A DNA stretch of 64,000 nucleotides. Source: Methylocystis sp. KS32. Lineage in GTDB: Bacteria > Pseudomonadota > Alphaproteobacteria > Rhizobiales > Beijerinckiaceae. Location of the stretch: the NCBI GenBank assembly GCA_002862095.1, contig PHSQ01000002.1, positions 1-64,000 of the forward strand. Direction: 5' to 3'. Every line of letters starts with the position of its first letter. The first letter of the stretch is position 1. The notes beneath the pieces are model-generated. The model saw only the letters and a program-made list of their open reading frames with translations. It was not told where the DNA came from and did no database searches. The position numbers and the translations under genes were made by a program. Positions 1,856-45,833 of this stretch are shown here, in pieces.

Positions 1856-1881
1856 GTAACTTTCTCCAATCCGCTTTCGAA
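1856..1881 (+). promoter_or_regulatory. Candidate SigF-type promoter, VKOR/rSAM/methyltransferase
   Basis: GTAACT (1856-1861), 16 bases, CGAA (1878-1881). The same layout occurs before bufA (3618-3643) and at 6820-6845. GTAACC-N16-CGAA is the promoter motif I recall for the Caulobacter heavy-metal sigma factor SigF, and a SigF/NrsF pair lies at 5395-6666. The predicted start leaves a leader of about 45 bases before the ATG at 1934. Confidence 0.6.
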
Positions 1882-1933
1882 TACATCACTGCGCCAAAGG
1901 GAGGGCTTTGAAATATTACATCGCGCCATCGCC

Positions 1934-2599
1934 ATGAGCCTCGCCGCGCTGAGCGCGGGAGCCATGCTTTACGTCGGCCTGTACCAGATTCGCGCGGTTC
2001 GCAGGCTTTGGTGTCCTCTCTCGGGCGGATGCGAGGCCGTCGCCGACGCGCCCTTCGCGCGGCCTTTCGGGATGCCGGACGGCTTCATCGCCTTCGCGCC
2101 GCGCCGCCAGCGCGTGCTCGGCCGAGAAAGCCGACAGCCCCACCGGGTCGCGCTGGCCGAATTCGCGCCCGGTGCGCCGCCCCGCCGCCCGCTCCAGCAC
2201 GGCGTCGACATGGCGCCCGGCCTCATAGGCCGCCGCCGAGAGCCGCCCCCGCCGCGCCTCATATTCCAGCGCGTCCACCCGGGCGTTGACCGCGACGCGC
2301 CGCCGCCGCCTGGGCTCCTCGGGGTCGTCGGCGATCTCGCCAAGAACATGTTCATGATCATGTTGCAGGACTTCATGGATCCCTGGACCTTCAACCAGAA
2401 GAATCTGATGAAGTGCTGCAAGGCGTTTCTGCTGCCGGGCGGCGGCCAGGTTCCGTTTTGCGCCTACAACACGGTCGGCTATCGCGAGCAGGCGCGGGCG
2501 CAACTCGACGCCATGGAGCCCGCCCGCCGCGCCGCGCGGCGCGAGGGAAAACGCTACGAGCCGCGACCGATCGTTTTCGACTTCCCGAAATGGACGTGA
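1934..2599 (+). pseudogene. Chimeric remnant: VKOR N-terminus + inverted insert + radical SAM C-terminus
   Basis: Residues 1-55 resemble the start of a vitamin K epoxide reductase domain: a membrane helix, then CPLSGGCEAV and FGMPDG, matching the usual Cys...Cys-E-x-V and FGxP pattern. Residues 55-134 are the antisense translation of the 237-bp inverted duplication. Residues 135-221 resemble the C-terminal end of a radical SAM enzyme of the MJ0619/Tes-like type (MDPWTFN, KCCKAF, PGGGQVPFCAYN). The CxxxCxxC radical SAM core is absent. The ORF is open only by chance across the junctions. An ancestral VKOR gene followed by a radical SAM gene, fused by rearrangement, is the simplest reading. Its stop overlaps the methyltransferase start by 10 bases, which suggests an original radical SAM-methyltransferase operon. 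Confidence 0.6.
2098..2334 (-). repeat. 237-bp inverted duplication, right arm
   Basis: Inverted copy of 1328-1564 sitting in the middle of the VKOR/radical-SAM ORF. On the minus strand it still reads as the central part of the hypothetical protein at 1222. Its insertion, or an associated deletion, removed the material between the VKOR start and the radical SAM end. Confidence 0.85.
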
Positions 2600-3408
2600 C
2601 GCCGCGCGAGGCGGGGCGCGACGACCTCATCAAGAGCTGTTGCGCGGCGGCCTGGGAATCCGAAGCGGCGGGCTGGCTGCTCGGCGAGAGCTTTCACCCC
2701 GGCGGCCTCGCCCTGACCGAAAGACTCGGCCGCGCGCTCGAACTCACGCCAAAAATGCGCGTGCTCGATCTCGCCTGCGGGCGCGGAGCCAGCGCGCTGC
2801 ATCTCGCCGAGCGTTTCGGTTGCGCCGTGCTGGGGATCGATCTCAGCGAAGGCAACGTCGAAGCCGCGAGAGGGCGGGCCGACGCGCGCGGGCTCGCCTC
2901 GAAGGTTTTGTTCCAACGCGGCGACGGCGATGCGACGCCTTTTCCCGACGCCTCCTTCGACGCGATCATTTGCGAATGCGCCTTCTGCCTCTTCCCCGAC
3001 AAGGCGAGGGCGGCGCGCGAGATCGCGCGCTTGATCAAACCCGGCGGCGTCCTCGGCCTCGCCGACATCGTTCGCCTGCAAGCGCCGCCGGCGGAATTCG
3101 ACAGTCTCGCGTCCTGGATCGCCTGCGTCGCCGACGCCCAGCCGATCGACGCGCTCACCGAGATTTTCGGCGCCGCCGGGCTCGCGGCGACCGGCGTCGA
3201 GACCCACGGCGAAGCCTTGATCGCGCTCGTCGACGAGGTGAGGGGCCGTTTGTTCGGCGCGGAAATTCTGGCCGGATTGCAAAAGATTTCCTGGCCAGGC
3301 TTTGATTTCGCGAACGCCAACCGGCTGGCGCGTCTCGCGCGGGACGCGGCGCGGCGCGGCGCGCTCGGCTATGCGACGCTCACGATGCGCAAGGCCGAGG
3401 CGGATTGA
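2590..3408 (+). CDS. Class I SAM-dependent methyltransferase
   Basis: 272 residues. Motif I VLDLACGRG (about residues 58-66) and a following acidic GIDLSEGN mark a Rossmann-fold SAM-binding domain (Methyltransf_11/25 type). FDAIICECAFCLF is the motif IV region and LIKPGGVLGLADI the post-motif strand. The ATG at 2590 overlaps the stop of the radical SAM remnant, so the two were probably co-transcribed from the SigF-type promoter at 1856. The substrate is unknown. An unusual number of Cys residues sits near the N-terminus (KSCCAA) and in motif IV. A GC-rich hairpin (3409-3443) begins at its stop codon. Confidence 0.8.
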   Translation: MDVTPREAGRDDLIKSCCAAAWESEAAGWLLGESFHPGGLALTERLGRALELTPKMRVLDLACGRGASALHLAERFGCAVLGIDLSEGNVEAARGRADARGLASKVLFQRGDGDATPFPDASFDAIICECAFCLFPDKARAAREIARLIKPGGVLGLADIVRLQAPPAEFDSLASWIACVADAQPIDALTEIFGAAGLAATGVETHGEALIALVDEVRGRLFGAEILAGLQKISWPGFDFANANRLARLARDAARRGALGYATLTMRKAEAD

Positions 3409-3443
3409 GCGGGCGCGGCGCGCCCCGTCCAGGCCGCGCCCGC
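3409..3443 (+). terminator. Perfect GC hairpin after the methyltransferase
   Basis: A 10-bp perfect stem (GCGGGCGCGG at 3409-3418 pairing with 3434-3443) starts directly after the TGA. No T-tract follows, so it could be a Rho-dependent or pausing structure rather than a classic terminator. The rest of 3444-3617 holds nothing I can identify. Confidence 0.5.
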
Positions 3444-3617
3444 GCTGGTCGGCGCGGCAAGCCTCGGATCGCGGTCCGACGCGATCGCGGCTTCAAGGGA
3501 AAGAAACGCGCCGAGCCCCGGCGAAATTCGCCATCGGCCCGGCGGCCGCGAATTTCATCGGGATCATGGCGCCGTCGGCGCGGATCGATCGCCGTCGGCG
3601 AAAAATGACGATCCTCG

Positions 3618-3643
3618 GTAACTTTTATGTTCGCCGGAGCGAA
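3618..3643 (+). promoter_or_regulatory. Candidate SigF-type promoter of the bufferin operon
   Basis: GTAACT (3618-3623), 16 bases, CGAA (3640-3643), identical in layout to the sites at 1856 and 6820. It lies 72 bases upstream of the bufA ATG. Bufferin operons are known SigF targets in Caulobacter, which supports the assignment. Confidence 0.7.
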
Positions 3644-3714
3644 CAGGGCTCCGTGATTTCGGCAACGGGGTCGCGAGGCGCTCGTCCCAAGAGCGTGTTT
3701 CCAAGGAGATCAAT

Positions 3715-3957
3715 ATGAAGACCAATATCGTGTCCGGCGCTTCCGTGGCCGCCGCGGCGATCGCTCTCGCGGTGGGCGGCATGGCCGCCGCCCCGGCCTT
3801 CGCCAAGAGCGCGCCCGTCCATTGCGCGGGCGTCAACGCCTGCAAGACCGCGAACAGCGCCTGCAAGGGTCAGAACGCCTGCAAGGGCCAGGGCTGGCTG
3901 CCGGAGAAGTCCGCCAAGGCCTGCGAGGCCAAGGGCGGCTCCGTCGCCGAAATGTAA
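3715..3957 (+). CDS. bufA: Bufferin precursor (DUF2282 family, BufA-like)
   Basis: 80 residues. An N-terminal Sec signal peptide (about residues 1-30, ending APAFA) is followed by a small cysteine-rich peptide with HCAGVNAC, SACKGQ, NACKGQGW and a final AC-x2-KGG, five Cys in all. This is the pattern of periplasmic bufferins: copper-buffering peptides whose cysteines are modified by the MNIO enzyme BufB with its partner BufC, then exported. The ATG has AAGGAG upstream. It is first in a bufA-bufB-bufC operon behind a SigF-type promoter. Because the adjacent bufB is internally deleted, maturation of this peptide probably depends on another MNIO enzyme in the genome, or fails. Confidence 0.85.
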   Translation: MKTNIVSGASVAAAAIALAVGGMAAAPAFAKSAPVHCAGVNACKTANSACKGQNACKGQGWLPEKSAKACEAKGGSVAEM

Positions 3958-3964
3958 CGGCTTT

Positions 3965-4005
3965 GGCGCGGGACGGAAATCGCGTCGCGCTTTCCGTCCC
4001 GCGCC
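3965..4005 (+). promoter_or_regulatory. Intercistronic hairpin between bufA and bufB
   Basis: A perfect 15-bp stem (3965-3979 with 3991-4005) and an 11-base loop lie in the 90-base gap. No T-run follows. Such a structure usually acts as a partial terminator or 3' RNA stabiliser, letting a small secreted peptide be made in excess over the enzymes downstream. This role is inferred. Confidence 0.7.
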
Positions 4006-4047
4006 ACCAATCCCTTATAAAGACATTCGTGGCTGGCTGGAGGGCGA

Positions 4048-4563
4048 ATGAGCATCTCGCGCGCGCTCGGCTTGGGCCGGGGGCTTCGCTCGACCTATTG
4101 CCCCGATATTCTGGAGGGAAAGGCGAATGTCGAATGGTTCGAGATCATTTCGGAGGATGACATGGTTCCGGGCGGGCGGCCCCTCGCCATGCTCGACCGC
4201 GTTCGCGCCGACGATCCCATCGTCATGCCTGGCGTCTCGAGGTCGCTGGCGTCGACCGATCCGCTCGACGTCGATTATCCGCGCGAGTTGAAAGCGCTGG
4301 CCGAACCCATCGAACCGGCCTGGGTGTCCGACCATGCGCGTCCCGCAATCGGCGCGCCCGGCGAGATGAAACCGCGCGACCAGCCGGCGCGCGAGGAGGC
4401 TTGGGCGCTCTACGAACTGGCTTGCCGCCGCTTCGGCGATGTCGCGGCGATGATCGAGCGCGACGATAATTTTCCGCCCTTTTCGGAACTGCTCGGGGGG
4501 CTCGAACAGATGCGCGAAATCGCCGCCAGGGCCGGAGCCGAAAATTCGCGGAGCGCGGCGTGA
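4048..4563 (+). pseudogene. bufB: Internally deleted BufB (DUF692/MNIO enzyme)
   Basis: 171 residues against about 280 for the family. The N-terminus is typical (GLGRGLRSTYCPDILEG, WFEIISEDDM, PAWVSDH near residue 95) and so is the C-terminus (WALYELACRRFG, MIERDDNFPPF), but roughly 110 residues between WVSDH and ARPAIG are missing in frame. The lost part holds most of the iron-binding His/Asp/Glu ligands and the TIM-barrel core. In addition, the family motif LHGVSLS reads MPGVSRS here, so an early ligand His is replaced by Pro. A working oxidase is very unlikely. Good ribosome site (GGAGGG). The stop overlaps the bufC GTG by 3 bases. Confidence 0.85.
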
Positions 4564-5351
4564 AGCTCGCGGAGATCCAGGCGAGGTTTCAAGCGGGCGT
4601 GCTTGGAGACGACGAGCGGGACCGCGCCGCGATCCTCGGCTCGATCAAAAATTCCCCCCGCGCGGACAAGGCGACCTTGTTCGCGGTCTATCACGACGCC
4701 TATCGCCTGCGCCTGGCGGAATTCCTCTCCAACGATTTCCCGGCTCTTCGCGCTTACCTCGGCGACGAGGCCTTCGGCCAATTGGTCGAGGACTATGTTC
4801 TGTCGGCGCCGTCGCGTCAGCGCAACGCGCGCTGGTATGGCGCGCGCCTGCCCGATTTCATGGGCGAGACCGCGCCGTGGCGGGAGCATCGCAACGCCGT
4901 CGATCTGGCGCGGTTCGAACGCGCGCTGTCCGACGCCTTCGACGCCGCCGACGCCCCCGCGCTCGCGATCGACGTCTTGCAAAACACGAGCCCCTCGGAC
5001 TGGCCGCGCGTCGCCTTCGATTTTCATCCGAGCTTCGCGCTGCTCGATCTCGCCAAGGGAACGGCGGCGATACACGCCGCTACGCTCGACGAGGACGAAG
5101 CGCCGCCCGCGCCCCAAGACCAGGAAGAAGCGGTGATCTTCTGGCGCGACGAGGATCAATGTTTCTTTCGCGCCGTCGCGGAGGACGAGCGTCTCGCCCT
5201 GTTGGAGGCGAGGCAGGGCAAGCCTTTCGAGGACATTTGCGCGCTGCTGGCGTTTCAGCTCAACGGCGGCGACGTAACGGCGCGGGTCGCCGGATTTCTC
5301 GCGCAATGGTTCCAGGACGGGCTTATCGCGGGAATATCCTTCGCAAAGTGA
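4560..5351 (+). CDS. bufC: BufC-like MNIO partner protein (DUF2063/HvfC)
   Basis: 263 residues, full length for the family. The N-terminal DUF2063 domain (about residues 5-95) contains the usual VYHDAYRLRLAEFLSNDFPAL stretch and a winged-helix-like C-terminal part. In bufferin and related systems this protein delivers the precursor peptide to the MNIO enzyme for cysteine modification. The GTG start overlaps the bufB TGA (GTGA), which indicates translational coupling. The reading frame is intact although its enzyme partner is broken, so either decay of bufB is recent or BufC serves another BufB. Confidence 0.8.
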   Translation: MKLAEIQARFQAGVLGDDERDRAAILGSIKNSPRADKATLFAVYHDAYRLRLAEFLSNDFPALRAYLGDEAFGQLVEDYVLSAPSRQRNARWYGARLPDFMGETAPWREHRNAVDLARFERALSDAFDAADAPALAIDVLQNTSPSDWPRVAFDFHPSFALLDLAKGTAAIHAATLDEDEAPPAPQDQEEAVIFWRDEDQCFFRAVAEDERLALLEARQGKPFEDICALLAFQLNGGDVTARVAGFLAQWFQDGLIAGISFAK

Positions 5352-5394
5352 GCGCCGCGCGGGGCGCGACGGTCTCGCGTGCGGGAAGGGGGCG

Positions 5395-6078
5395 TTAAGG
5401 CGGGATGCGCCGATCGGCCGCGAGCGCTTCTTGCAGCGTCGGCCAGCGCAAAAGGACGCGTCCCAACAGCGCCTCCAGGCCGGCCAGCAGGACGACCGAC
5501 CCGAACTGCCAGATCAACACCATGATGCTGGCGTCCTCGACGTGGAAAAGCAGCAGCGCCGCCGCCGCCAGCGCGGCCGCCGCGAGAGCGGCGAGGCCCG
5601 TGGCGGTGGCGGGAGCAATGGGCGCGCCGCGCCGGATCATGACGAAAATCAGGGCGCCGGGTAAAATGCTGATCGCCACTATGGCCGGAAAGCAGATCAA
5701 ATCCAGGTGGACGGCGAGTCCGGCGACGCCGAGGGCGGCCCAGTCGCTCCAGCAACCTTTTCCAATCGCCCCCAGCCAGAGCGCCAGAAACGGGAAGGGC
5801 GCGAGGCGCTCCCACGGGGGCCGGCCCGGACATCCCGCGCAAAACGCCCCCGCCGCGGCCATCATGCTGGTCAGAAGCGCCGCGCCCAGCTCGGTCGCGA
5901 ATCTCAAATCGACGAGTTTCGCGGATATGTCGGGGCGCAAGCCGATCGCCGCGACGACGATCGCGACATAGGCGAGCGAAATGGCGAACCAGGCGACGGC
6001 CCGCAGCGCCGGATGCGGGAGCGGGCGAACCGGCGTGCAGTTCGAGGCGAGGGCGCCGATGAGTTCCTCGGTTTGCAT
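5395..6078 (-). CDS. nrsF: Anti-sigma factor, NrsF family (DUF1109)
   Basis: 227 residues with about six membrane helices. The family normally anchors and silences its cognate SigF at the inner membrane and releases it under heavy-metal (copper, chromium, cadmium) stress through two conserved periplasmic-side cysteines. Here one Cys is present (LDLICF, residue 129), but the second position reads FHVEDAS. The paralogue at 44641 has FHCTDDS there, so the second Cys has become Val. Extra Cys occur at FCAGCPG (80, 83), which might substitute. It begins 6 bases after the sigF stop, forming a sigF-nrsF operon, and it converges on bufC. Confidence 0.8.
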   Translation of the reverse strand: MQTEELIGALASNCTPVRPLPHPALRAVAWFAISLAYVAIVVAAIGLRPDISAKLVDLRFATELGAALLTSMMAAAGAFCAGCPGRPPWERLAPFPFLALWLGAIGKGCWSDWAALGVAGLAVHLDLICFPAIVAISILPGALIFVMIRRGAPIAPATATGLAALAAAALAAAALLLFHVEDASIMVLIWQFGSVVLLAGLEALLGRVLLRWPTLQEALAADRRIPP

Positions 6079-6084
6079 GGCTCT

Positions 6085-6666
6085 CTAGTTCTTTCGTTCC
6101 AAGGCTTGGCGCATCGCCTTGACGGCTCTGTGCGCGCTGACCTTGAGCGACGTGACGCTTTTGCCGGTAACCTCGGAGGCCTCTTGCAACGAGAGTCCCT
6201 GTATCTTGAGCAATTCGATCGCTTGACGCTGGCCGTTCGGCAATGTCGACATCGCCTTGCGGAGATCCTCCTGTTCGTCGCGCGCTTCGTGATCTAACTT
6301 CGCGTCGCCCGCCGAAAAGGTTTCAGGCATGACGTCGACCGTCGTTTCATTGGCGCTTCTTGCGTAATTCCGGCGCGCCGCGTCGGCCATGCGGCGGGCC
6401 GCGATCGTCATCAGCCAGGGCGTGAAGGGACGGCTCGCGTCATAGGTGCGCCGAACCGCGTGGACCGACACCAGAATCTCCTGAACGACATCCTCGGCGT
6501 CGAGCGTCCTTGGCCATTTATGGGTCACGACGCGGCGCAGCAAGGGCAGAAGCTCGGACAGAAGCTGGGCATAGGCCTTTCCGTCGCCGTTCTGCGCGGA
6601 TCGCATCAGCGCCCGCCAGCGCTCCTCGTTGGCGTGCTTGGCCGCCGTGTCGGTTCGATTGCTCAT
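6085..6666 (-). CDS. sigF: ECF sigma factor, SigF type
   Basis: 193 residues from the ATG at 6666; the frame is open further upstream but unlike any sigma factor. Region 2 (about residues 15-95) contains AEDVVQEILVSVH and PFTPWLMTIAARRMAD. Region 4 (about 130-190) contains LPNGQRQAIELLKIQGLSLQEAS and a helix-turn-helix ending SAHRAVKAMR. It is paired with NrsF directly downstream. Probable targets are the three GTAACY-N16-CGAA sites at 1856, 3618 and 6820. No such site was found on its own strand upstream, so autoregulation is not evident. Confidence 0.85.
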   Translation of the reverse strand: MSNRTDTAAKHANEERWRALMRSAQNGDGKAYAQLLSELLPLLRRVVTHKWPRTLDAEDVVQEILVSVHAVRRTYDASRPFTPWLMTIAARRMADAARRNYARSANETTVDVMPETFSAGDAKLDHEARDEQEDLRKAMSTLPNGQRQAIELLKIQGLSLQEASEVTGKSVTSLKVSAHRAVKAMRQALERKN

Positions 6667-7173
6667 CTGATGCGCCACGACAACAAGTGTTTGCGGGGTC
6701 CAGACGCCGGCGCCCGGAGCGGACGAGAAACTAGACCATCGCGAGACGGGGCGGAAGCCGTCTTTTTTCGTGCGGGATGTTCTCGTCGAAACATGTTCGT
6801 CGCGCGCAATATGTTGGCGGTAACCTTCGCGCCGACTCTCCCGAAAGCGGATGCGCGTTCGCCATCGCACTCGGCTCCAGCGCAGGCGCTCGACCTCGCG
6901 CCGGAGTCTTTTCGACGCTTCGCCGACGATCGGATCGAAGAGAACGCAACCAGCGCCGCGCATCTTCACGATCCCGCGCATGAAGCGTCGCTTGCGCGTC
7001 GCAAATCGGCGTGTCGAAAATTCACGACGATCATCATCGGACGAGGGAGGCCGTCCACGCGCGTCGCGGACATCGCGAGGGCCAAGGGCGGCGCTTCATA
7101 GGCAAGAAAAATCAGTTGGATGATTTTCCATGAACGATGAAACCTTTCGCGGTTGGGCGCGAATTAGGAAGGT
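6667..7173. other. Divergent intergenic region, sigF to channel gene
   Basis: 507 bases. It holds the SigF-type site at 6820-6845. The remaining sequence has short arginine-rich ORFs in several frames without ribosome sites or family features, which I regard as non-coding. A transcript from the site at 6820 would carry a leader of roughly 320 bases before 7174. Confidence 0.6.
6820..6845 (+). promoter_or_regulatory. Candidate SigF-type promoter toward the channel gene
   Basis: GTAACC (6820-6825), 16 bases, CGAA (6842-6845): a perfect match to the motif recalled for Caulobacter SigF. It points away from sigF, toward the outer-membrane channel gene at 7174. Confidence 0.6.
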
Positions 7174-8355
7174 ATGCGCGAAGCGTGGGAGTTCGACCTT
7201 GAGTCCGTGGAAAGCGAATGCGAGCCGTCGCGCCGATCAGGCTCGCGTTTCCGGCGCCGCGATCGCGTCGGGCGTCGGCGCATGATTTCGGCCGCCGCCG
7301 GATTGTTGATGGGCAATGTCCTCGACGCCCGCGCGGGCGGCGTCCCCGTCGGCGCGGTGAGCGAGGCGCCGCCGCCGGCGCCGCTGGGCGTATTCGGGGC
7401 GGACATGCCGGCCGAAGGCCGGCTCGCTTTAACCATCGCGCCCAATTTCTCCCATCAATCGGGCTTTAAAATCGGCGCGCGCACGGTGTCGAATCAATTC
7501 ATCATCGCGACGGTTCCGTTTTTTCTCAATCCCAATCTCGCGCGCCAGCAGTTGCGCAATTTTCCCGAAAATATCGCGACGGCCTCGCAGGCGGTCAGTC
7601 TCGCCTATGGCGTGACGAGGGACTTCGCGATGGTCCTGGCGACCGGCATGGTCGAGAAAAATCTCGAACTGTTAACCTATAAGGGAAGCACCGGCTTCAC
7701 GCCGCTCGGGTCGAGCTATCCGGGAACGGCGGGCCTTGTGGACTCCACATTGTCGGGCGTCTATCGAGTTTATCGGGACGAGGTCAACAGCGTCCAGGTC
7801 TCCCTCGGCCTTTCCTTCCCCACCGGGCCAGACACGGCCACGTTGCAGGATTTCCTTTTGCCCAGCGGGCTGCGCTCCTCGGTCCGGGCGTTCTATGGGA
7901 TGGAGCCGGGCGCGGGAACCTACGATATTTTGCCGGGCGTGGCCTACAGAGGCTATCTGGGGCCGTGGTCCTGGGGCGCGGCCTATCGCGGGCGGCTGCC
8001 GCTCGGCCCCAATCTCGAAGGCTATCAGTGGGGCGACCTGCACGAATTCACCGGCTGGGGCGGCTATTCCTGGACGAGCGATCTGACCACGACGGTCCGG
8101 GTGAGCGGTTCGACGCAGGGTCCGATCCGCGGCGCCGATCCCGAAATCAACGGCCCCGCCGTGCCCGCCAATCCCAATTTTTACGGCGGCCAGCGGGTCG
8201 AAATCTTCGGCGGCGCGGCGCTCAACGGGGAGGCGATCGGTTATGAAAACGCAACCCTCGCCATCGAGGCGGGCCTGCCGATCTATCAGAACCTCAATGG
8301 CCCGCAGATCATGAAGAACTGGCAAGCGGGCATGTCGCTGCGCTTTCGGATATAG
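7174..8355 (+). CDS. Outer-membrane beta-barrel channel, transporter (MetA-pathway phenol degradation-like)
   Basis: Up to 393 residues. Strand-rich body with alternating aromatic residues, GPWSWGAAYRGRL and EFTGWGGYSW motifs, and a terminal strand ending SLRFRI, as expected for a barrel sorted to the outer membrane. The C-terminal 140 residues are clearly paralogous to the protein at 14254. The start is uncertain: ATG 7174 gives a 36-residue arginine-rich lead before the signal-peptide core (MISAAAGLLMG), while ATG 7282 starts at the core but leaves no basic n-region. Downstream of the SigF-type site at 6820, next to a copper-type gene cluster. Role in solute or metal passage is inferred. 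The stop is followed immediately by an R repeat. Confidence 0.7.
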   Translation: MREAWEFDLESVESECEPSRRSGSRFRRRDRVGRRRMISAAAGLLMGNVLDARAGGVPVGAVSEAPPPAPLGVFGADMPAEGRLALTIAPNFSHQSGFKIGARTVSNQFIIATVPFFLNPNLARQQLRNFPENIATASQAVSLAYGVTRDFAMVLATGMVEKNLELLTYKGSTGFTPLGSSYPGTAGLVDSTLSGVYRVYRDEVNSVQVSLGLSFPTGPDTATLQDFLLPSGLRSSVRAFYGMEPGAGTYDILPGVAYRGYLGPWSWGAAYRGRLPLGPNLEGYQWGDLHEFTGWGGYSWTSDLTTTVRVSGSTQGPIRGADPEINGPAVPANPNFYGGQRVEIFGGAALNGEAIGYENATLAIEAGLPIYQNLNGPQIMKNWQAGMSLRFRI

Positions 8356-8629
8356 AGAGCTTTGCGACCGGACGGAATCGTCTGGTCGATTAATTCTACT
8401 GCGTCACGAAGCGGCCTGGGGCCGGGCCAGCGCCCGTCATTGCGAGCCGCAGGCGAAGCAATGACGGGCGCTGGCCAGCCCGCTGGATCGCCACGCCTTC
8501 GGCTCGCAATGACGAAACCGCCGACAAATTCGTTCCGACGCAGTAGAATTAAGAAATCGCTCAAGATTCAAAAAGCTGGAGCAAAATCTAATCGAAAAAG
8601 TCGATCACGTTTTTCGGGGTTTGCTCTAG
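8355..8629 (+). repeat. Family R repeat split by an M element
   Basis: The left part (8355-8389) carries GAGAGCTTTGCGACC and GTCTGGTCGAT; the right part (8553-8629) carries GAAATCGCTC, AAAAAGCTGGAGC and TTTGCTCTAG. Rejoined across one TTAA they restore the continuous R sequence seen at 62243-62360. Confidence 0.85.
8394..8548 (+). mobile_element. Family M MITE-like element, 155 bp, TTAA duplication
   Basis: Ends TTCTACTGCG and CGCAGTAGAA are inverted repeats, extending imperfectly inward to GTCACGAA / TTCG-TTCCGAC. Flanked by TTAA at 8390-8393 and 8549-8552. The uninterrupted R repeat elsewhere has a single TTAA at this point, so this is a direct before/after insertion record. The interior holds two REP cores. 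Confidence 0.85.
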
Positions 8630-13755: not shown

Positions 13756-14160
13756 TTAGAAGCCTTGCCCCCGCGGAACGATGTCCCAACGGATCATCAT
13801 GGCGTGATCCTCATGCACGACGTTGTGGCAGTGCATGACGTATTTGCCGAGGAAGTCGCGCCAGCGGCCGAAAAGCTTCACCTCGTCGCCCGGTCCAAGC
13901 TGAGCCACGTCCTTGCGGGACTTGAGCAGCGTGCCCGGCGCCACCGGCTTTCCGTTGACCTCGATGATCTGGAACTCTTCGAAGTGCGAGTGAATCGGAT
14001 GCGCCCAGTTGTCGCCGTCGTTGCGGAAGGTCCAAACAAAGTCCGAGCTTCCGATATATATTGTGGAAAATTTGATACACTGGCGCGCAAACAGTTGCAT
14101 TGCGTAAAAAATCGGCGAACCGCCCATTGACGATTTCCAGAGCTTGCACGTATCAATCAT
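13756..14160 (-). pseudogene. C-terminal fragment of a multicopper oxidase
   Basis: Only the last cupredoxin domain remains, from about 14049 down to 13756: HPIHSH (the HxxHxH site) and YVMHCHNVVHEDHAMM (HCHxxxHxxxxM with type 1, 2 and 3 copper ligands). The first two domains are missing. The 37 N-terminal residues of the open frame (14050-14160) have no resemblance to an oxidase and come from AT-rich DNA that continues to about 14180. A deletion or insertion therefore cut the gene at about 14050. It would have headed the minus-strand copper operon, so the promoter of that operon may also be lost. Confidence 0.8.
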
Positions 14161-44640: not shown

Positions 44641-45279
44641 TCACCAACGCAGCAGGCGGGGGCCGAGAGCGTAGCCAGCCGCGACGATTAACGCGATGGC
44701 GATGGAATACCAGACCGCGACGAACAGCAGGCTGTCGTCGGTGCAGTGAAAGGCGTACAAAGTCGCACCCATGCTGCTTGCCAGAAGTCCGGCCGCGGCT
44801 CCGGCGGCTCCCGCGTTCGTCGGAGCGCCCTCGCGCAATGCGAAGAAAAGACATGCGAGCGGACCCGCCGATAGCATCGGGATCAGCATCAGGCAGTATT
44901 TGGCGTGGGTTCCCACGAGCTTTGGCCACCAGCTCGATGCCGGCGACATGGCGAGTTCCGCGCCGACCCCTGCCGCCAGAACAACGGGGCCGATCAGAAG
45001 CGCCAGTCCCCAAACTCCCATCGACTGGCCGGGTTCGCCTAATCGGGGAAGTAGTTTCGCGCTTGTCGCGGCAAGGGCGAGATTGACCCCGATTTTCAAC
45101 CACACCCACGGGCTGGTCGCCGCCGCGGCCAAGTCCGGCCTCACGCCGATGGAGGCGAAAAAAATCAGGGCGGCGACGCCAATTGCGACAATCAGCGACG
45201 CGGCGTAGATCAAGGGAAACCGCGCCTGCGGCGTCGCATTGTCCGCGACGAGAACATCGATCAACTGCTCTGTTTTCAT
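44641..45279 (-). CDS. Second anti-sigma factor, NrsF family (DUF1109)
   Basis: 212 residues, about six membrane helices. Paralogous to the protein at 5395 (RPDL near residue 48, GAPTNAG in place of GAPIAPA). This copy keeps the presumed sensor cysteine pair: KYCLML (C129) and FHCTDDS (C179). Its ATG overlaps the sigma-factor stop by 4 bases (ATGA). Expected to hold its SigF at the membrane until metal or thiol stress. No target gene lies next to it. Confidence 0.8.
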   Translation of the reverse strand: MKTEQLIDVLVADNATPQARFPLIYAASLIVAIGVAALIFFASIGVRPDLAAAATSPWVWLKIGVNLALAATSAKLLPRLGEPGQSMGVWGLALLIGPVVLAAGVGAELAMSPASSWWPKLVGTHAKYCLMLIPMLSAGPLACLFFALREGAPTNAGAAGAAAGLLASSMGATLYAFHCTDDSLLFVAVWYSIAIALIVAAGYALGPRLLRW

Positions 45280-45833
45280 TGGCCATCTCCCCGATAAAGG
45301 GACGCAAGAGCCTTGATCGCTCTATGCAACGCCACCCGAACGGCCCCTTCGCTCATTTCCAACCGTTCCGCGGTTTCCTTCACGGATCGCCCTTCAATGG
45401 ACAGCGCCCGCACCAGTTCGCGCTGCCGATCGTCGAGCTTTTCAAGCAGGCGATCGAGGTCCATCCGATCCAGGGATCGATCGTCGCGGTCGGCGGTCAG
45501 AGTGTCGAGCATTTCTTCAATCGGCAGATTCGCGTCATTGCCTTTGCGACGGCGCACGTCGATCAGCTTGTTCCGGGCGATCGCCATGATCCAGGGCGCG
45601 ATTGGCCGGTCTGGATCCCATGTATGCCGCTTCAAGTGGACCGCAAGCAGAGTCTCTTGAACGACATCCTCCGCCTCGCCGCCATCCAACCCAATGCGGG
45701 CGCAATTGCGCCGGGCGACCGAACGCAAGACCGGGGCGACCGATAGGAGAAATCGCCGATAGGCGTGAGCGTCGCCGCGCTTGGCTTGCCGCATCAGGCG
45801 CGCCCACTCCTCGGATTCCCCATCTGATGGCAC
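45276..45833 (-). CDS. Second ECF sigma factor, SigF type
   Basis: 185 residues from GTG 45833. Region 2: AEDVVQETLLAVHLK and PIAPWIMAIARNKLIDVRRR. Region 4: DRQRELVRALSIEGRSVKETAERL and MSEGAVRVALHRAIKAL. Paired with the NrsF protein downstream. Ahead of the start lies GTAACA-N16-CGGA (45872-45847), one or two bases from the SigF consensus, which suggests autoregulation or cross-regulation by the first SigF. Divergent from an exopolysaccharide glycosyltransferase. Confidence 0.85.
   Translation of the reverse strand: MPSDGESEEWARLMRQAKRGDAHAYRRFLLSVAPVLRSVARRNCARIGLDGGEAEDVVQETLLAVHLKRHTWDPDRPIAPWIMAIARNKLIDVRRRKGNDANLPIEEMLDTLTADRDDRSLDRMDLDRLLEKLDDRQRELVRALSIEGRSVKETAERLEMSEGAVRVALHRAIKALASLYRGDGQ

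Follow-up and report, generated by a model that had tools for sequence, protein, structure and literature searches.

A predicted SigF-NrsF regulon in Methylocystis sp. KS32 with bufferin genes and a broken VKOR-radical SAM-methyltransferase unit

The first 64,000 nucleotides of contig PHSQ01000002.1 of Methylocystis sp. KS32 (hereafter the window) carry a gene pair for an extracytoplasmic function (ECF) sigma factor and its putative anti-sigma factor, SigF1 and NrsF1, together with three promoter-like sites of the form GTAACY-N16-CGAA (P1, P2 and P3). As a prediction, a local SigF1-NrsF1 regulon is well supported. We consider it quite likely that the sites act as SigF1 promoters, with P2 serving a bufferin operon and P1 an operon for a VKOR protein, a radical S-adenosylmethionine (SAM) enzyme and a class I methyltransferase, which would be a second conserved arm. 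Judged from sequence, we count the local regulon as a new ECF16 example, and the case for its VKOR-radical SAM-methyltransferase arm comes from comparative genomics and not from the window's own broken genes.

Promoter-like sites and their candidate sigma factor

P1 (positions 1856-1881, plus strand; GTAACTTT...CGAA) is a SigF/ECF16-type site ahead of the VKOR-radical SAM-methyltransferase unit, 53 bp before the open reading frame (ORF) at 1934. The SigF-type site P2 (3618-3643, plus strand) lies 72 bp ahead of the bufA2 ORF at 3715, and P3 (6820-6845, plus strand), also SigF-type, is divergent from sigF1. The initial annotation had reported these GTAACY-N16-CGAA matches on the plus strand at 1856, 3618 and 6820, each with exactly 16 bases between the boxes, and no further exact match; the computed search returned the same three, all on the plus strand, and none other in the 64 kb. 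Its description of each site as lying upstream of a gene start suits P1 and P2 and is loose for P3, which is 329, 437 or 464 bp from the possible starts (7174, 7282 or 7309) of an outer-membrane-like gene. The gene caller had placed P3 within a 5' extension of sigF1; alignment with relatives sets the start of that gene at 6666, so that P3 is intergenic.

Dinucleotide shuffles of the window (n = 100) contained 0.10 GTAACY-N16-CGAA sites on average and two at most. Across spacings of 10 to 22 in the window, N16 gave three matches and N11, N17 and N22 one each, these last all beyond 55 kb. The whole assembly (3.36 Mb) holds seven exact sites, against three for the reversed pattern, and P1, P2 and P3 are the sole intergenic ones; the remaining four lie within ORFs. 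Had the motif been no commoner before genes than inside them, the initial annotation would have counted its regulon as refuted, and in this assembly all three clustered sites are intergenic and none of the four others. When Y is relaxed to any base, the assembly has 15 sites (11 for the reversed pattern) and the window stretch still has P1-P3 alone. The three also share GTAACYTT, found in none of the other four exact sites.

The candidate reader of these sites, sigF1 (6085-6666, minus strand), matches PF04542 and PF08281 (sigma-70 regions 2 and 4), and nrsF1 (5395-6078, minus strand) encodes a DUF1109/NrsF anti-sigma factor (PF06532, E 9.7e-27). Pfam thus bears out the earlier claim of a SigF/NrsF pair within the interval. 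What had been overlooked is a second pair at 44641-45833 on the minus strand, nrsF2 (44641-45279) and sigF2 (45276-45833), which is a separate ECF16-like system, as well as the broken state of the VKOR, radical SAM and bufB genes. The hallmarks of ECF16 are found at SigF1: sigma-70 regions 2 and 4 encoded next to an NrsF gene, and GTAAC-N17-CGAA ahead of local genes.

NrsF2 is the nearer of the two anti-sigma factors to the Pfam consensus (PF06532 E 6.3e-53 vs 1.3e-26 for NrsF1 in this comparison). With the NrsF equivalog model NF042994 (cut-off 300) they score 86.1 and 27.6 bits, respectively, and both pass the broader Pfam model. Their cysteines also differ. Cys129 (window numbering) is present in 26 of 26 aligned NrsF proteins, NrsF1 among them. 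The second conserved cysteine (179 in NrsF2) occurs in all three NrsF2-type rows and in none of the 23 others, NrsF1 having a valine there, and a cysteine at the residue-109 column occurs in 22 of the 23 non-NrsF2 rows and in none of the three NrsF2-type rows.

Sites and targets across the genus

The same-genus set comprised 39 genomes, in which NrsF was identified by PF06532 and its types were split by E-value. NrsF is present in 27 of them: 23 have the NrsF1 type (the KS32 genome included, which has both) and four have NrsF2 only. Every one of the 23 NrsF1-type genomes has at least one exact site within 15 kb of the NrsF1 gene, a zone that takes in 62 of 151 exact sites, whereas none of the 16 exact sites in the NrsF2-only genomes (n = 4) lies within 15 kb of NrsF2. 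Twelve genomes gave no NrsF match; of these, at least G023 (89% complete) has a five-site cluster on one short contig.

This distribution bears on the alternative that the sites are read mainly by SigF2, or by both sigma factors. Each sigma factor has an NrsF partner, and before bufA2 in two SigF2-type loci of the genus the site reads GTAACA- or GTAACG-N16-CGAA. The gathering of GTAACY sites around SigF1-type loci, set against the empty surroundings of NrsF2 in the NrsF2-only genomes, argues the other way, and we regard a leading or shared role of SigF2 as very improbable.

Spacings of 15 and 16 predominate in the genus. The islands retrieved from the genus (372 kb of sequence) hold 49 sites at N16, 16 at N15 and between zero and three at each of 19 other spacings, and the reversed control gives zero to three at every spacing. 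By the gene caller, 45 of the 47 site rows in the islands are intergenic (one site is listed twice, from overlapping stretches). Since the islands were fetched for holding nrsF or sites, and some of the genomes are close kin, the spacing contrast is the fairer measure. Genome-wide enrichment had to be given up as support: across 41 genomes, the exact motif is outnumbered by its reversed control in 36, as frequent in two and commoner in three (KS32 included). As the motif is not over-represented genome-wide in relatives, only clustering and placement count.

In the window, bufA2 (3715-3957, plus strand) encodes a bufferin-type metallophore precursor of 80 amino acids (NF050166, 68.5 bits; cut-off 60) and is followed by bufB and by bufC (4560-5351, plus strand), the gene of a DUF2063 partner protein (PF09836, E 5.6e-21). 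In 20 genus loci (L067-L086), all 15 bufA2 homologues have GTAACN-N16-CGAA 53-90 bp upstream; the box is GTAACY in 13 and GTAACA or GTAACG in two SigF2-type loci (L085, L086). The NrsF2-type pair adjoins bufA2 in L085 and L086. Together with the clustering of sites, this conserved upstream site supports, as a prediction, the earlier expectation that the bufferin operon is a SigF target.

Sites away from nrsF are less uniform. Of 32 such sites in relatives, from picked stretches (L130-L164), 16 fall within ORFs, four have a SelR or SelR-like gene behind them, and the others look like chance. In L131, L135, L143 and L153 a SigF-type site lies 0-45 bp before SelR (MsrB), recognized by Pfam in the first two and by eye in the last two. 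These sites are in keeping with the methionine sulfoxide reductases that recur in ECF16 regulons.

Other genes also stand beside SigF-type loci in the genus. An ArsM-like methyltransferase gene follows nrsF in L081. In large SigF islands (L070-L075, from G004 and G014), a DUF2064 gene is preceded by sites and a phosphorylase-family gene has sites next to it. We take these islands to be, possibly, an arsenosugar-type branch of the regulon.

The VKOR-radical SAM-methyltransferase unit

Loci for comparison were chosen blind to the motif, by searching genome contigs with the intact radical SAM protein of locus L125; the best 80 of 89 were used. VKOR is directly upstream in 12 of the 80 (L166, L167, L170, L171, L172, L174, L175, L179, L187, L192, L200 and L204), and in L205, L206, L228 and L230 a VKOR match is found on the far side of the methyltransferase, not upstream. 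A methyltransferase row follows the radical SAM gene in 73 loci; the other seven gave none. Ten of the 80 loci have the motif in the 1 kb that precedes the radical SAM gene, six at N16 and four at N15. The 19 other spacings gave two matches together in the same 1 kb, one of them N17 in L206, where NrsF is nearby. Shuffled 1-kb upstream sequences (200 rounds) yielded a mean of 0.105 motif loci and a maximum of one. A chance origin of the sites was rejected on the shuffles of window and loci and on the spacing counts in the window, the genus islands and the radical SAM loci.

Eight of the 10 motif-bearing loci are VKOR-first; the other two, L210 and L216, are from Acidobacteria and have no VKOR upstream. 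In L167, L171, L172 and L174, GTAACC-N15-CGAA precedes both a bufA1 operon and the VKOR operon. In L200 the genes form one same-strand run, site-bufA1-bufB-bufC-doxX-trx-dsbD-VKOR-radical SAM-methyltransferase, so that the lack of a site directly before VKOR is explained by its place inside a run that a site opens. L187 has two divergent sites, one facing VKOR and the other a DsbD gene.

NrsF and a sigma factor gene are present in seven of the 12 VKOR-first loci (L167, L171, L172, L174, L175, L187 and L200) and in three of the 68 others (L188, L206 and L216). A tblastn search with the window's NrsF gave 7/12 and 1/68, Pfam added L206 and L216, and a profile from our own alignment found only the first eight; these counts are lower bounds because 24 of the 80 loci span less than 8 kb. 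At the genome level, PF06532 is found in 17 of 50 examined genomes of the loci, including all 10 motif-bearing ones and nine of the 12 VKOR-first ones. In the methyltransferase tree nine proteobacterial linked rows group together (88/78), L210 and L216 fall in an Acidobacteria group (99/97), and the window sequence pairs weakly with L188 (95/62).

A DUF427 gene recurs beside the unit. It adjoins the VKOR unit in L167 by Pfam and in L171, L172 and L174 by likeness, and in L204 (11675-12062) a SigF-type site lies 45 bp before a DUF427 gene.

Several points weigh against a two-arm SigF1 regulon. The genes downstream of P1 and P2 are broken in the window, P3 has no near target gene, and NrsF1 is without the second conserved cysteine, so that its input may differ; NrsF1 may then respond to a different stimulus. 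Self-control of sigF1 was dropped, since the best own-strand site before the gene has two mismatches (N16-N17 scanned). Among relatives, the way the islands were fetched favoured site-rich stretches, and the exact motif is mostly the rarer of the pair when set beside its reversed control. Seventy of the 80 radical SAM loci have no motif in the 1 kb upstream, and the VKOR-first Acidobacteria L170, L179 and L192 have neither the motif nor NrsF in the genome. The motif loci are also mostly kin (Bradyrhizobium, Afipia, Roseiarcaceae and others) and may therefore amount to only three to five independent cases.

A rival explanation is that the regulon is the known bufferin one only, P1 being chance or an inherited leftover, the unit an unrelated neighbour, and SigF control elsewhere a lineage-specific accident. 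The broken unit and the 70 loci without the motif speak for it, and so does the genus: at E 1e-20 the radical SAM protein is found in the other 38 same-genus genomes only in G007, at 38% identity. It has more trouble with the 10 loci that do carry the N15/N16 motif where shuffling gives a mean of 0.105, with the presence of NrsF in the genomes of all 10, across Proteobacteria and Acidobacteria, and with L200, whose unit shares one run with the bufferin genes. We find this explanation improbable. The near absence of the unit from the genus suggests that the window copy was probably acquired and then lost. At the level of the order, the methyltransferase has a match at E 1e-15 in 87 of 297 genomes and the radical SAM protein at E 1e-100 in one of 397; beyond the KS32 genome, only the G243 methyltransferase matches at near-full length (49%, E 7.4e-76).

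The damage to the window copy is extensive. The VKOR remnant (1934-2088, plus strand) retains about 54 residues of the N-terminal part and lacks the C-terminal CxxC half; it scores 18.7 bits with PF07884 (E 0.0021), under the cut-off of 27.5, where intact relatives reach 52.6 bits (L175) and 49.0 bits (L200). A 249-bp inverted copy (2089-2337, plus strand) of the segment 1325-1573 (plus strand), with 245 of 249 bases identical (98%), occupies the place of the missing VKOR part and of the bulk of the radical SAM gene. The source segment lies inside an ORF (1222-1830) without a Pfam match, and 1222-1860, searched against the assembly, matched the inverted copy and apart from that just stretches of 25 and 28 bases. 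What is left of the radical SAM gene (2327-2596, plus strand) encodes the last ~88 of ~506 residues, without the SAM-cluster core; 65 of 88 residues (74%) are identical to residues 418-505 of the L125 protein (506 amino acids). This remnant scores 36.1 bits with the Tes model and falls short of the radical SAM core and the curated Tes/TrsS cut-off. The coupling of a lost radical SAM core to an inverted insertion is unusual. With VKOR and radical SAM truncated, the unit is unable to work in this assembly. The initial annotation's proposal that it belongs to a SigF regulon thus holds for other genomes, where the unit is intact, and does not extend to a working unit here.

The class I methyltransferase (2590-3408, plus strand; DVU_1556-like) is full length at 272 amino acids and has a long branch in the tree (1.13 against a median of 0.3). 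It scores 138.2 bits with NF045667, the DVU_1556 family model (cut-off 155), and its L125 homologue 146.6. By sequence, both are close relatives of the DVU_1556 family and not members by its cut-off.

Two further genes have lost large parts. The MNIO maturase gene bufB (4048-4563, plus strand) lacks its middle: it encodes 171 amino acids where five aligned intact homologues have 281-308, and scores 116.6 bits with NF050167, below the cut-off of 310. The loss follows WVSDH and removes the ENASTY, DVNN, HLAGH and IDTH stretches of the closest intact relatives, which we take to hold the metal ligands. That bufB works in this organism is not supported. Two intact bufB genes lie elsewhere in the assembly, on contigs C5 and C6, one of them next to a further ECF sigma factor. 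No SigF-type N16 site with fewer than two mismatches was found before the buf genes of these two operons. On C6 (L127, 6201-10019) the buf cluster is intact and has a different ECF sigma factor of its own. A multicopper oxidase gene (13756-14127, minus strand) keeps only the last 93 of the 578 residues of its L079 homologue. It adjoins SCO1-like, cytochrome c and 609-aa genes, and the same genes stand beside the SigF islands L079, L081 and L082.

Decay and misassembly both fit this damage. If the broken VKOR, radical SAM, bufB and multicopper oxidase genes were assembly errors near a contig end, the organism itself would have both arms intact. The window begins at base 1 of its contig (C7), four genes within 14 kb have large losses next to promoter-like sites that are still perfect, and repeats are close by: besides the 249-bp inverted copy there are 57-bp tandem repeats at 651-1106 (element CGTCATTGCGAG...), the element also occurring near 1-100 and 8430-8514. 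Set against this are the several kinds of damage (inverted insertion, internal loss, 5' loss), the long methyltransferase branch, as expected under relaxed selection, and VKOR homology that starts ahead of the frame's first ATG, by 12 bases. We judge misassembly unlikely, although it deserves serious weight.

P3 corresponds in position to the buf1 promoter of relatives. It lies 153 bp from the start of sigF1, on its far side, and the buf1 promoter lies 143 bp (L067) and 154 bp (L083) from sigF in the same orientation. No remnant of bufA1 or doxX was found behind P3 in the window at E 0.01. Given the matching distances and the missing genes, P3 is likely an old buf1 promoter, either left over or re-used, and its present target is doubtful. 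The initial annotation had suggested the outer-membrane channel (7174-8355, plus strand, with a start at 7174, 7282 or 7309; no Pfam match), which we do not retain as a conserved SigF target: P3 is distant, and the relatives of the gene within the genus lie outside the fetched motif loci, where only the window's own copies occur. No homologue was found in L246. Among the 120 relatives listed of 236, those that bear a name are for the most part Methylocystis proteins annotated as alpha-amylase.

Known systems and a possible copper response

The closest known system is that of Caulobacter crescentus, where SigF (ECF16) has mapped GTAACC-N16-CGAA promoters (PMC3511200). As in the window, a sigma/NrsF pair is combined with this motif and with DUF2282-DUF692-DUF2063 bufferin operons as targets; the difference is that the SigF target table of that paper contains no VKOR, radical SAM protein or methyltransferase. 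Induction by copper and a copper-sensitive sigF mutant are reported for Caulobacter (PMC8224329). Caulobacter NrsF is described with cysteines C131 and C181, of which NrsF1 keeps the first only. The EcfF-OsrA pair of Bradyrhizobium japonicum (ECF16; PMC3420878) shares a DUF1109 anti-sigma factor, a GTAAC-type promoter and methionine sulfoxide reductase targets. It differs in its consensus, GTAAC(g,a)-N14-15-(c,t)CG(t,a), and in that OsrA has both C129 and C179, the former thought necessary for EcfF binding and the latter for the peroxide response; the terms radical SAM and VKOR are absent from the main text of PMC3420878. Brucella BcrS is likewise given as an ECF16 member with GTAAC-N17-CGAA.

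The bufA2, MNIO bufB and DUF2063 bufC order agrees with the bufferin clusters surveyed in 2025 (PMC12452194), apart from the truncated bufB of the window. That survey places sigma factor and NrsF genes in Buf1 and not in Buf2 clusters. The window and its genus relatives are exceptions, with a Buf2 precursor and a SigF-type site beside sigF-nrsF. Among the papers listed by our literature searches, none connects VKOR and radical SAM with SigF or bufferin, and none describes a VKOR-radical SAM operon under SigF.

The radical SAM homologues of the unit resemble Tes, the archaeal tetraether lipid synthase (7tol), and TrsS, a radical SAM (seleno)protein listed in PMC13188914. The L125 protein scores 328 bits with Tes (cut-off 450) and 333 bits with TrsS (cut-off 490), under both. 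The intact L175 protein aligns to 7tol over 311 residues (E 6.6e-79), with a C-terminal CC...C region in addition, and carries an HMPTM-type zinc ribbon. The methyltransferase resembles DVU_1556 and arsenite methyltransferases. The product of the two enzymes may be a modified lipid or small molecule; a lipid, a pterin-like compound and a thiol are all possible.

From these likenesses the following course of events can be proposed. Metal or thiol stress would relax the membrane anti-sigma factor NrsF1, by analogy with Caulobacter NrsF and Bradyrhizobium OsrA, and the freed SigF1 would join RNA polymerase and read GTAACY-N15/16-CGAA, as the match to the mapped consensus suggests. BufA2 would bind surplus copper in the periplasm; as the window's bufB lacks its core, BufA2 could mature here only in trans, presumably by one of the two intact BufB proteins encoded elsewhere. 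In genomes with an intact unit, VKOR would deal with periplasmic thiols in partnership with DsbD and thioredoxin, and a modified lipid or small molecule would be the product of the Tes/TrsS-like radical SAM enzyme together with the methyltransferase. The full proposal is tentative, and we give it somewhat less than even odds: SigF1-NrsF1, a cysteine-swapped ECF16 subtype, would induce bufferins plus a VKOR-Tes/TrsS-like radical SAM-methyltransferase arm that modifies lipids or thiols in the copper response, in several proteobacterial lineages and some Acidobacteria, the arm having been lost here by internal deletion.

In the literature examined, ECF16 regulons comprise bufferins and methionine sulfoxide reductases, and a conserved radical SAM pathway would extend them. 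If the proposal is true, the copper response would also rebuild a lipid or small molecule, and the uncharacterised Tes/TrsS-like family would gain a condition under which to seek its product. The results further tie a Buf2 bufferin to SigF-NrsF, contrary to the Buf1-only pattern of the survey, and point to an NrsF subtype without the second cysteine, the residue on which the hydrogen peroxide response of OsrA is thought to depend.

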